Assembly (NCBI RefSeq): GCF_900162825.1 | Contig: NZ_FUGE01000065.1 | Span: 1 to 34,733 of the forward strand | Length of the DNA stretch: 34,733 nt | Origin: Psychrobacter piechaudii | GTDB lineage: Bacteria; Pseudomonadota; Gammaproteobacteria; Pseudomonadales; Moraxellaceae | Direction: 5' to 3' | Shown: positions 22,605 to 25,936 of the stretch, piece by piece | How the letters are laid out: every line of letters begins with the position of its first letter | How positions within the stretch are numbered: position 1 is the first letter of the stretch | The notes under the pieces: generated by a model | Seen by the model: the letters and a program-made list of their open reading frames with translations, nothing else | Told to the model about the DNA's origin: nothing | Database searches by the model: none | Program-made: the position numbers and the translations under genes

Positions 22605-23093
22605 CTAATTACCGCGATGATAAGGGTGGTTATTATTAATACTCATCGCTCGATATAACTGCTCCATCAATACCACACGCACTAGGGGATGAGGCAGAGT
22701 AAGGGGTGACAATGACCATTTAAAGTCAGCTGCTGCCAGTACTTCAGGCGATACGCCATCTGCACCGCCAATGACTAGTGCCACATCATCACCAATTTGC
22801 ATCGCTTCACTGAGCTTGTCAGCCAATTGCTCGGTGGATAGCATCTTGCCTTTGACATCGAGTACCCACAGCTTTTCACGGGAGTTACTTTGATGGGTAG
22901 CCAAAATAGCTTTGCCTTCTTGCTCACGATATTGTGCCAAATTAGCATCTGACGGGTTTTTGGCACGTTTAGCAGCGGCTAAGTCGATAATTTCAGCAGT
23001 GAGCATGGGCTGAATGCGTTTGTGATACTCATCAAATCCGCTATCAATCCACTTAGGCATCTTACTGCCGACACTTAAAATGCGTAATTTCAT
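22605..23093 (-). CDS. rlmH: 23S rRNA pseudouridine(1915) N3-methyltransferase RlmH
   Basis: 162 residues, a small SPOUT-class methyltransferase that methylates pseudouridine 1915 in helix 69 of 23S rRNA on assembled 70S ribosomes. Diagnostic features are the N-terminal MKLRILSVGSKMPKW, the SAM-binding IGGADG and the C-terminal LPHPLVRVVLMEQLYRAMSI knot region ending in YHRGN. Full length for the family (E. coli 155). Its upstream side faces the DnaA-box region at 23094-23699. rsfS, a frequent neighbour elsewhere, is absent. Confidence 0.95.
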   Translation of the reverse strand: MKLRILSVGSKMPKWIDSGFDEYHKRIQPMLTAEIIDLAAAKRAKNPSDANLAQYREQEGKAILATHQSNSREKLWVLDVKGKMLSTEQLADKLSEAMQIGDDVALVIGGADGVSPEVLAAADFKWSLSPLTLPHPLVRVVLMEQLYRAMSINNNHPYHRGN

Positions 23094-23171
23094 AAAAGAA
23101 AAAACCTTTTGGTTTAATTAATAGAACTGCTAAAGCTAAAATGTCAACCTTTTGGTGCGTGATTTTCAAAC

Positions 23172-23180
23172 TTATCCACA
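23172..23180 (+). promoter_or_regulatory. DnaA box (perfect TTATCCACA)
   Basis: An exact match to the consensus DnaA-binding 9-mer, 79 bp upstream of the rlmH start codon, on the left side of the A+T-rich tract. Confidence 0.65.
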
Positions 23181-23380
23181 GCTAATTTGAGACTCTTGAG
23201 TCAAGCTGTGAAACATTTGAAGCAATACCACAATCACTGATAAATTATTTATAATAGCTATTAATTTTAAGCATTAGCTATATAAGATATTGATTTTATT
23301 AGTAAAAATAATTGTACAAAAAATGAGCAATTTTATTCAAAGCCGTATGCTGTCTAGGGTATAACTTGTCAAGCGTGGGG

Positions 23381-23401
23381 TTATCCACAGAGTTATCCAC
23401 A
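23381..23401 (+). promoter_or_regulatory. Two DnaA boxes in tandem (12-bp period)
   Basis: Two exact TTATCCACA boxes at 23381-23389 and 23393-23401 are separated by 3 bp. A weaker related sequence (TTATGGGGA) follows at about 23404. They lie just right of the A+T-rich tract. Confidence 0.7.
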
Positions 23402-23476
23402 GCTTATGGGGAAAACTCTTAATCGCCTTGCTAGTCATGCGTTTGGCAGGAGTAGTGGATTTGGATGAACAAAAGT

Positions 23477-23555
23477 AAAGAGCCGTTATTAGTAACAGAT
23501 TCAAGGCAAGTCAAGCCAAAAATCGTAAAATACTCAATAATAAAGGCTCTTTTTT
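23477..23555 (+). ncRNA. Long-loop hairpin with T-run; possible small RNA or terminator
   Basis: AAAGAGCC (23477-23484) pairs with GGCTCTTT (23545-23552). After one mismatch, TTATTA pairs with TAATAA, leaving a loop of about 46 nt, and T5 follows. No plus-strand gene precedes it, so it would end a short untranslated transcript from the DnaA-box region. On the minus strand it could serve as a weak trmB terminator. No promoter was identified. Confidence 0.35.
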
Positions 23556-23570
23556 GGCTTAGTTGTCAAA

Positions 23571-23582
23571 TGTTCCACGTGG
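23571..23582. promoter_or_regulatory. parS-like ParB-binding site
   Basis: TGTTCCACGTGG matches the first 12 positions of the 16-bp parS sequence used by Pseudomonas-type ParB (TGTTCCACGTGGAACC), including the CCACGTGG palindromic core. The last four bases (TAAG) differ. Such sites cluster near chromosome origins, which strengthens the oriC reading of this region. Confidence 0.45.
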
Positions 23583-23699
23583 TAAGTTTTATGTTGATCA
23601 TCAGCTACTGGCTTTGAAATCTAAGTAGGCCACAATAAGTCAAGATAAACTAACCTAGATAAACCACTAACAGCTAGGATGAGTCTAGGTTTATAACGG

Positions 23700-24572
23700 C
23701 TAGTCTTTGCTATAAATTAAATCCCAAACTCCGTGGCCGCGATCGATGCCTCTTTTTTCAAATTTAGTCATAGGTCGGAAGTCTGGACGCGGTGTGAAAT
23801 TACCTTGGCCTGCGGTATTGGTTAAGCCTTCAAAATTATCTAGCACATCCAGCATCCAAAATGCATAATGTTCCCAGTCCGTTGCTGCATGGAACCAGCC
23901 CCCATTTTTGATAACACGGGTCACAATTTCCATACGTTTTGGGCTGACAAAACGGCGCTTATAATGACGCTTTTTTTGCCAAGGATCAGGGAAGTACAGC
24001 TGGATACGGTCAATATGGTTCTCAGGCAGTTGCTGCATTAAAGCAATGGCATCCCCATTGATAATCTTTAGGTTGGTCAGGCCCTCTTCGTTGGCCATAA
24101 AGGCGCACTTGCCAATACCCGGCTCATGCACTTCAATACCTACGAAGTTGCGGCTAGGATCGGCTTTGGCCATCTCGATCAATGAGCTTCCCATACCAAA
24201 ACCAATCTCAAAGGTTAACGGGGCATCAGGGCCATTGGACGTCTGCTCAGTATCTGCAAACAAGGCGCGCAAATCTGTGATGTCATCGATAATGCCTTGG
24301 CCTCTATCGTCCATAGTATTGACGATGTATTTGGCATAAACAGGGTCCGTTAGCGCTTGCTCGGCATTTTTGTTAAGGTGGGTACGGCGCTTCATAAAAG
24401 TTTTGATTAAGCGTGGGAACGCAGTATCAGCGGCCTCAGATTCAGCTTGATCGTTATTTTGGTCAACGCTACCTTCTGCTTTAGGATCGATAGCCTCGTC
24501 CTTCATGTCAGTAGTTTCAGAATTTGGTAAGCTATCTGTGGTAGGGGTGTTTGGAGTATTCTCAGCGCTCAT
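23700..24572 (-). CDS. trmB: tRNA (guanine(46)-N7)-methyltransferase TrmB
   Basis: About 290 residues. It forms m7G46 in the variable loop of tRNAs. The core has the SAM motif [27 protein letters not shown] and the signature [16 protein letters not shown], ending in the family's TKFEKRG and GVWDL. The first 65 or so residues are an acidic, Asn/Thr-rich extension not needed for the fold. The longer frame begins with TTG at 24605. I prefer ATG 24570-24572, although its ribosome-binding site (GGA) is weak. A TATAAT at 24680-24685 on the minus strand is a likely -10; a tnpB element ends 14 bp further upstream. Confidence 0.93.
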
Positions 24573-24679
24573 ATTAAAAAAATCGTCCACTATTGAGGTT
24601 ATCAAGTTGAAGGTATTGTGAGGTTAATTAAGCCTATTAAAAAAAGCGTTAAGGCTAAAAAATAAAGTAAGATGGGCGT

Positions 24680-24685: not shown

Positions 24686-24850
24686 ACGCTAATCCACCTT
24701 TGACCTCCTCCCCTCGCTAAACCGAGGGGATTCCTACAGCTAGACGGTCAAGCCCGACCGCAAGGATGTTCTTAGCAGCATTGATATCTCTATCATGCCA
24801 TGTGCCACACTTAGCACAAGTCCATCCTCTTATTCCAAGTCCTGCTCTAC
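24680..24850 (-). ncRNA. Predicted omega RNA with guide (copy 2)
   Basis: By analogy with TnpB systems, an RNA from the 3' end of tnpB passes the right-end hairpin (24709-24728) and continues into flanking DNA. The guide would begin at 24699 on the minus strand with AGGTGGATTAGCGTTATA. This guide overlaps the presumed trmB -10. The 5' boundary is arbitrary. Confidence 0.4.
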
Positions 24851-25936
24851 CTTTCGGACTACTGTCACTTATTTTAAGGCAGCACGAGCAGGTCTGGGTA
24901 GTGTAACTCTCATTTACGATCTCAAGCTGACAACCTGCATACTTGCATTTATATTCCAGTTGTCTTTTAAGTTCAAACCATCCTGCATCGTATGTTGATT
25001 TAGCCAGTTTGGTCATCGAATTGGTAAATGAGCGTGATTTAACATCACCAACCACAATCAAGGCATTACTCTGCACTAGCTTGGTGGTGAATTTATGAAT
25101 TAGGTCTAATCTTGTATTTTTTATTTTGGCATGAATTGCTTTGACATGTTTTTTATTCTTAGCACGCTGGGCTACTGCTAATTTATTCGCCCACTTTTTC
25201 GTTTGCTTAATAGTTAGCGTGTCGCCATTTGATGTGGTTGCAGACTCTTTTAAGCCCAAATCAATTCCAACGCTGCCCTTACCACTTACTTGCTTAGGAA
25301 AGTCTTTAACGGTGATACAGGCATACCAACGATTACGACTGTCTTGTACAATCTCTAAGGTGTTAATTTGATATAGACTGAGGTTGTAGCTATCGAATAC
25401 ATCGATGAGGAGCTTTTGACCTTTAGATAGGGATAGCTGTAGGGTTGATTTCAGTGCCTTCTTACCTGTCTGCCTTGTTTGCAAATACTTGATAGCAGAT
25501 TTTTTAAAAGGTATCCATCCCAATGATTTACGCTTGGCATCAGGACGATTGGTACGCCAGTTAAGCTTGGCTTTTTTAAATTGTTTTCTGGCCTTGGCGT
25601 GAGTCTCATTGATAGCTTGTAAGGTTTGACTATGTAATCCTAAATACTCACCGCTACCTTTGGTATACTCACTTAGATCATAAGCACTAAAAAACCTACC
25701 GGTACGTTTTAGATGCTCAAAGCAAAGTGCATTAATATAGTTCCACACGAAGTTTACTGAACCGCTTAGACGATTAAGCTCTTTTATGTGTTTGTCTTTA
25801 ATGCGTAGCTTGAGTGTTTTCATATGCTTAGTATCGCAAGATTAATTTTAGCTTACAACCCTTTAACGACTTCTTACGACAGTGTGTGTCGCCTTATATC
25901 CACCCCCTGAAGTGGGTGGTTTTACGGCGACCGGTG
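24700..25936 (-). mobile_element. Complete tnpB-only IS200/IS605-type element (IS1341-like, copy 2)
   Basis: About 1.24 kb. The right end (24700) is fixed by comparison with copies 1 and 3: similarity stops at TCAA, after the hairpin CCCCTCG/CGAGGGG. The left end is inferred. A hairpin CCACCC/GGGTGG at 25900-25919 resembles the subterminal hairpins of this family. The bases TTTAT just outside (25937-25941 on the minus strand) are a plausible target-adjacent motif, which would put the left end at 25936. A second small hairpin (CGACA/TGTCG, about 25869-25885) precedes tnpB. There is no tnpA and no target duplication, as expected for single-strand transposition. Mobility would need TnpA in trans. 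Confidence 0.8.
24717..25823 (-). CDS. tnpB: TnpB RNA-guided nuclease, variant RuvC-II site
   Basis: 368 residues and full length. An N-terminal wedge and helical region comes first, then a split RuvC domain with a zinc finger. RuvC-I aspartate is Asp188 in GIDLGLKE. At RuvC-II, where most TnpBs have IVxED, this reads IVVGDV, so Gly259 replaces the catalytic glutamate. A glutamate in VNESYTTQTCS (Glu305) may substitute. The zinc finger has CSCC (312-315) and CAKC (336-339). RuvC-III is HDRDINAA (343-350). The stop codon lies in the right-end hairpin loop. Nicking activity is likely but unproven for this variant. It stands between trmB and a truncated gene. Confidence 0.9.
   Translation of the reverse strand: MKTLKLRIKDKHIKELNRLSGSVNFVWNYINALCFEHLKRTGRFFSAYDLSEYTKGSGEYLGLHSQTLQAINETHAKARKQFKKAKLNWRTNRPDAKRKSLGWIPFKKSAIKYLQTRQTGKKALKSTLQLSLSKGQKLLIDVFDSYNLSLYQINTLEIVQDSRNRWYACITVKDFPKQVSGKGSVGIDLGLKESATTSNGDTLTIKQTKKWANKLAVAQRAKNKKHVKAIHAKIKNTRLDLIHKFTTKLVQSNALIVVGDVKSRSFTNSMTKLAKSTYDAGWFELKRQLEYKCKYAGCQLEIVNESYTTQTCSCCLKISDSSPKGRAGLGIRGWTCAKCGTWHDRDINAAKNILAVGLDRLAVGIPSV

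Follow-up and report, generated by a model that had tools for sequence, protein, structure and literature searches.

Organization of the intergenic region

The window, i.e. the whole stretch of 34,733 nt from Psychrobacter piechaudii that was analysed, is contig C87 of an assembly comprising 2.82 Mb in 300 contigs. Among the 80 rlmH loci that were kept for comparison, the nearest named RlmH relatives are those of Psychrobacter pasteurii (96% identical) and P. phenylpyruvicus (95% identical). The region of interest is located between rlmH and trmB and was rightly regarded as gene-free in the preliminary description, as its 606 bp (23094-23699) are without any ORF of at least 80 amino acids. The region and its two flanking genes have the following features, with distances given from the end of the core of DnaA boxes I to III:

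22605-23093, minus strand: rlmH, at the place that is usually taken by recA in the genus
23172-23180, plus strand: additional perfect DnaA box, 200 nt from the core end
23280-23420, minus strand: whole element, match to profile R1 (E 7.3e-32)
23283-23295, minus strand: IHF-type site AATCAATATCTTA, consensus match, 85 nt past the core
23314-23328, minus strand: Fis-type site GCTCATTTTTTGTAC, consensus match, 52 nt past the core
23367-23372, minus strand: conserved TTGACA right after the core
23381-23389, plus strand: DnaA box III, TTATCCACA, with genus-wide variation at the free position of TTATNCACA
23393-23401, plus strand: DnaA box II, TTATCCACA, exact
23407-23415, minus strand: DnaA box I, TTTTCCCCA, one mismatch to TTWTNCACA, in the opposite direction to boxes II and III
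23477-23552, minus strand: hairpin between the trmB stop and the core, fold z-score -3.87, unflagged by the terminator scan
23700-24605, minus strand: trmB, the gene that remains adjacent to the element

On the minus strand, the core reads TTTTCCCCA-taagc-TGTGGATAA-ctc-TGTGGATAA, and together with the Fis-type and the IHF-type site it spans about 135 bp. The three perfect DnaA boxes that had been described earlier are present as exact copies of TTATCCACA at 23172, 23381, and 23393, all on the plus strand and within 230 bp, and a scan of the whole window revealed no further exact match. The inverted weak box at 23407-23415, the Fis-type site, and the IHF-type site had been overlooked. An A+T-rich tract had also been pointed out, and the G+C content of 23221-23340 is indeed 19.2% compared to 42.7% for the window; values as low as this are found in 9 of 34,613 windows of 120 bp. 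The Fis consensus used in the scans is degenerate, and the weight of this site lies in its fixed offset and not in the match itself.

The genes had been said to diverge from about here, but the flanking genes rlmH and trmB are both directed leftward. The switch in direction is located further to the right, at about 25.8-26.4 kb, between leftward tnpB and rightward trpS. This TnpB-family gene (24720-25823, between trmB and trpS; NF040570, 252.9 bits) has close copies at the start of contigs C66, C98, and C62 of the same genome.

An Rfam gathering search of the window resulted in no matches, and the terminator scan was not above shuffles, with no terminator found. The hairpin at 23477-23552 may act as a shield of the element against transcription of trmB, by analogy with the DARS sites of E. 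coli, for which transcription is described as harmful (PMC5010248).

Position relative to the replication origin

From the boxes and the A+T-rich tract, the preliminary description had considered an origin separated from dnaA, as dnaA, dnaN, and rpmH are absent near the element. This absence is correct, and the genes are encoded on contig C242, where three exact boxes are located between dnaA and rpmH, the latter being recognised by eye. The idea of an origin away from dnaA did not hold, because the genome has this box cluster of its own upstream of dnaA and because the GC skew of a relative turns at dnaA and not at the element. In this relative (G044), which is represented by a 3.13-Mb contig starting at dnaA, the skew was determined in 20 spaced samples and turns at dnaA and near 1.5 Mb. 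Between 0 and 1.42 Mb, it is positive in 9 of 10 samples, with a negative value at 0.313 Mb, and from 1.565 Mb to the end it is negative in all 10. The element of this relative is located at 2.258 Mb, between samples with skews of -0.046 and -0.056, i.e. without a turning point. Thus, although DnaA boxes beside an A+T-rich tract would also suit a chromosomal or secondary replication origin, such a role is highly improbable.

A further box cluster was noticed on contig C93 of the same genome (locus L084, 6475-6730), where three exact DnaA boxes are interleaved with the parS-like palindrome GGTTCCACGTGGAACT and near copies of it. This cluster is located between ribD and ribE (names assigned by eye), about 6 kb from the rnpA end of the contig, and is probably a partition region in the vicinity of oriC.

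The distance of the element from dnaA amounts to 18.2-21.2% in five relatives that do not belong to the clade of the window and to 27.5-27.9% in three that do. Genomes G001 and G055 have the element on the opposite side of dnaA and on the opposite strand.

Arrangement of the DnaA boxes

The boxes of the window have the offsets 0/14/26, with box I being inverted relative to boxes II and III, and this is the same arrangement as in the cores of DARS1 and DARS2. DARS sites, which are known from E. coli, reload ADP-DnaA with ATP. In the respective stretches of E. coli MG1655, boxes are located at 160(+), 174(-), and 186(-) for DARS1 and at 158(+), 172(-), and 184(-) for DARS2. The 35-nt core pattern TTNTNCNCNNNNNNTGTGGATANNNNTGTGNANNA has one match in the DARS1 stretch and one in the DARS2 stretch. 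It has no match in the E. coli datA stretch, and none with up to three mismatches in contigs C242 and C93 of the window's genome. The inverted box I and the common spacing are also named as shared properties of DARS1 and DARS2 in the account of a review (PMC5742627).

Conservation in Psychrobacter

The box pair II/III was detected in 96 of 105 Psychrobacter genomes when one mismatch was allowed. Profile R1 detected the element in 103 of these 105 genomes with E-values from 8.7e-17 to 1.6e-33, which are favoured for the genus because the 23 elements from which the profile was built are members of it. The two genomes missed, G081 and G086, are 77% and 92% complete, respectively. This conservation refuted a chance clustering of boxes, which has a negligible probability. 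The exact box sequence is frequent in the genome (35 copies compared to 12 for the reversed control); however, three boxes were reached in one of 100 dinucleotide-shuffled versions of the window, and three boxes within 230 bp occurred in none of 300 Markov resamples of the window.

When the window was aligned with the four named relatives in which the box pair occurs (L003, L004, L005, and L054), a conserved block around the pair became apparent. The box at 23172 is shared with L003, L004, and L005, but not with L054, and by this alignment lies outside the conserved unit. Accordingly, the conservation of the boxes in relatives, which had been named earlier as a check, applies to the pair but not to this lone box. 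The sequence TGTTCCACGTGG at 23571-23582, which equals the first 12 letters of a 16-nt parS palindrome, was also considered as a part of the element and rejected, as L003 has it unchanged and L004 with one change, and L005 and L054 lack it.

Within the 103 elements, box II is TGTGGATAA in 102 cases. Box III occurs as TGTG[G/T/C/A]ATAA in 40/34/28/1 elements and thus varies at no position other than the free one of TTATNCACA. Box I deviates from the consensus by one or two positions throughout and occurs as TTCTCCCCA (74), TTTTCCCCA (22), TTCTCCACA (6), and TTTCCCCCA (1). A TTGACA motif is found within the first 25 nt past the core in 99 of the 103 elements. An exact match to the Fis consensus is located at offset 52 in 101 of 103 elements, compared to 3 of 11,433 other offsets (0.03%). 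For IHF, matches with at most one mismatch are located at offset 85 or 86 in 101 of 103 elements (77 of them exact), compared to 32 of 11,433 other offsets (0.28%). The diverged elements of G006 and G062 have Fis sites with other letters at the same place, as is expected if the binding site and not the sequence is kept.

The element is flanked by trmB and recA in 90 of the 103 genomes and by trmB and rlmH in 8, including the window. In the other five, there is only trmB (G073) or only recA (G095), both at contig ends, or none of the three genes (G062, G077, G078). In the genome of the window, recA is located on another contig, C153. The distance from dnaA in three relatives with the rlmH arrangement is 17.4-18.0% for recA and 27.5-27.9% for the element. 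Judged by these gene orders, the element stayed with trmB when it was parted from recA. A feature restricted to the clade of the window had initially been considered, because rlmH was used as the anchor gene and the box pair was found near rlmH in 4 of 80 kept loci; this was rejected when the genus search showed that the element follows trmB.

A second, weaker copy of the element is present on contig C66 of the window's genome (8809-8946, minus strand) and in the relatives G038, G039, G044, G046, and G055. Its neighbours were checked in four of these six genomes (the window's genome, G038, G046, and G055) and are one gene resembling sugar kinases and one resembling phosphatases. Box I has two mismatches in all six copies, a Fis site is located at 52 in five, the copy of the window's genome being without an exact Fis match, and the IHF site is exact in five. 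In G044, G046, and G055, this copy is located 23.5-24.0% from dnaA.

Distribution in other Gammaproteobacteria

The numbers of matching genomes outside the genus are minimum counts, because strict patterns were used that missed 349 of 390 genomes of the order, 311 of 369 of the class, and 118 of 126 of genus g15. At the level of the family, the core pattern was found in at least 133 of 299 genomes from 8 of 16 genera, with no match for the reversed control. These comprise 101 of 105 Psychrobacter genomes and 32 of 194 others, with 8 of 126 in genus g15. At the level of the order, it was found in at least 41 of 390 genomes, 27 of them outside the family. From 20 of these 27 genomes, 20 loci chosen by the core alone were analysed, 11 of which are from one family. 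Of these loci, 16 have an exact Fis match at 50-52, 18 have an IHF match at 84-88 with no more than one mismatch, and 15 have both, while 0.65% for Fis and 0.42% for IHF per locus would be expected from control offsets. Counted by family, at least one site is present in 8 of 8 families and both sites in one locus in 6 of 8.

Among 30 loci from the family of Psychrobacter but outside the genus, 21 have Fis at 50-52 and 16 have IHF at 84-88, and slt, a lytic transglycosylase gene, adjoins the element in 13. In genus g10, the copies beside recA (L173, L175, L177, L179, L180, L183) are without Fis at 50-52 and have IHF at 96, and seven other g10 loci keep Fis at 51. The copies beside recA are a real exception to the geometry, and the two forms might perhaps reflect a division of labour like that of DARS1 and DARS2.

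A search of the class with boxes II and III, Fis, and IHF, but without box I, resulted in matches in 58 of 369 sampled gammaproteobacterial genomes from 48 of 272 genera, with no match for the reversed control. In 30 loci from 30 of these 58 genomes, some of which are close relatives, box I is present at exactly -14 with a perfect match in 21, one mismatch in 8, and two mismatches in 1, although it was absent from the query. With at most one mismatch, box I was found at 0.3% of 5400 control offsets. Its presence at the predicted place in 29 of 30 loci means that the DARS core is predicted by the rest of the unit. The replication-restart helicase gene priA adjoins the element in 9 of the 30 class loci (L307, L311, L314-L317, L321, L322, L327). 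One genome, G917, has three core-Fis-IHF matches on one contig (C1:13055, 1131457, and 4403886).

These neighbourhoods also bear on whether the region is a DnaA-controlled promoter region of recA, rlmH, or trmB. The position upstream of recA in 90 of 103 genomes of the genus and the conserved TTGACA would agree with such a role. However, the element is still present in the 8 of 103 genomes in which rlmH takes the place of recA, its stay with trmB argues against a function as recA promoter, and in other lineages it adjoins slt (13/30) or priA (9/30). Moreover, the promoter scan was not above shuffles, and a promoter region is very unlikely.

Proposed function

Taken together, the region is in all likelihood a DARS2-like DnaA-reactivating sequence with a variant layout, as far as can be judged from its sequence. 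A titration or a reactivation site had been suggested earlier, and it is the latter that is favoured by the DARS core geometry, the fixed Fis and IHF offsets, and the presence in 103 of 105 genomes, while titration is kept as a rival explanation. The reading as a DARS-like site is based on the orientation and spacing of the three boxes, which match DARS1 and DARS2 but not datA, on the retention of the element where rlmH replaces recA, and on the distance of 18.2-21.2% from dnaA in five relatives, which is near the 0.21 of DARS2. It is further based on the presence of genes for DnaA, Hda, Fis, and the two subunits of IHF in the genome. Apart from the dnaA gene, proteins over curated cut-offs were found for Hda (200.1 bits), Fis (102.3), IHF alpha (134, NF001401), and IHF beta (117.1, NF001222), while the cut-offs of TIGR00987 and TIGR00988 were not reached. 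Points that count against a DARS-like site are the order of Fis and IHF, which is reversed compared to DARS2, the deviation of box I from the consensus by one or two positions, and the distance of 27.5-27.9% in three relatives of the clade. The weaker second copies, the exceptions in g10, and the genomes missed by the strict patterns also count against it.

In E. coli, the ADP-DnaA molecules of boxes I and II meet head to head and lose their ADP, and DARS2 requires IHF and Fis for its activation, according to the accounts in PMC5742627, PMC8682772, and PMC4245941. By analogy, ADP-DnaA on box I of the element would face the ADP-DnaA of box II in a head-to-head manner. Binding of Fis and IHF on the side of box III would bend the DNA and switch the complex on. 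Subsequently, ADP would leave, and the freed DnaA would be reloaded with ATP before the next initiation at oriC. If the element works in this way, recharging of DnaA controls the timing of replication far beyond E. coli, and natural variants such as different spacings, the Fis-less form, and duplicated copies could be used to test which DNA geometry is needed.

DARS-like sequences have been described in E. coli-like species (PMC5010248, PMC8682772, PMC4245941), in Vibrio cholerae (PMC6090056), and, without names in the passage concerned, in "a number of Gammaproteobacteria" (PMC4451416, citing Fujimitsu 2009). In the portion of the open-licence literature that was consulted, no report on DARS in Psychrobacter, Moraxellaceae, or Pseudomonas was found. 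The same literature yielded no published account of the order core-Fis-IHF, which may still have been reported elsewhere.

With somewhat less than even confidence, it can be proposed that DARS of the compact core-Fis-IHF form are old and widely distributed in Gammaproteobacteria, swapping their neighbours (recA, rlmH, slt, priA) and keeping their geometry, and that E. coli DARS2 has its IHF-Fis order as the result of a local rearrangement. If this is true, DnaA would generally be recharged at dedicated sites throughout the class, and Fis between the core and IHF would constitute a differently built bending switch.

Comparison with known DnaA-binding sites

The element resembles oriC in having DnaA boxes and an A+T-rich tract, but it does not adjoin dnaA and is without a turn of the skew.

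Like datA, the element is non-coding and has DnaA boxes and an IHF site. High-affinity boxes and an IHF-type site are parts of datA as described in the review PMC5742627, and they would also be compatible with a site for DnaA titration, or with a datA-like one that promotes hydrolysis of ATP-DnaA. However, the essential boxes of datA are described in the same review as having one direction and a wide spacing, with IHF between them, whereas box I of the element is inverted and IHF is located outside the boxes. In addition, the core pattern is found in DARS1 and DARS2 but has no match in the stretch with datA, and a titration or datA-like function is therefore considered unlikely.

The core geometry of the element is the same as that of DARS1, which is located between bioD and uvrB, and the 35-nt pattern is exact in both. 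Unlike DARS1, the element has an IHF-type site, as no IHF match with up to one mismatch was found in the DARS1 intergenic stretch.

With DARS2, the element shares the orientation and spacing of core boxes I to III and has predicted Fis-type and IHF-type sites on the side of box III. The relative distance of E. coli DARS2 to oriC is given as 0.21 in PMC5010248, where it is also described as still working at this distance on the other arm; this compares with 0.182-0.212 for the element in five relatives and 0.275-0.279 in three of the window's clade. The locus is different, with trmB/rlmH in the window and trmB/recA in most of the genus compared to rppH/mutH for DARS2, which is described as a 455-bp site with further boxes (PMC5742627). 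DARS2 has two IHF-type matches, at 58 and 74, followed by a Fis-type match at 110, whereas the element has Fis at 52 and IHF at 85. Thus, the order is core, IHF, Fis in DARS2 but core, Fis, IHF in the element, and because of this reversed layout the element is called a DARS2-like variant and not a DARS2.
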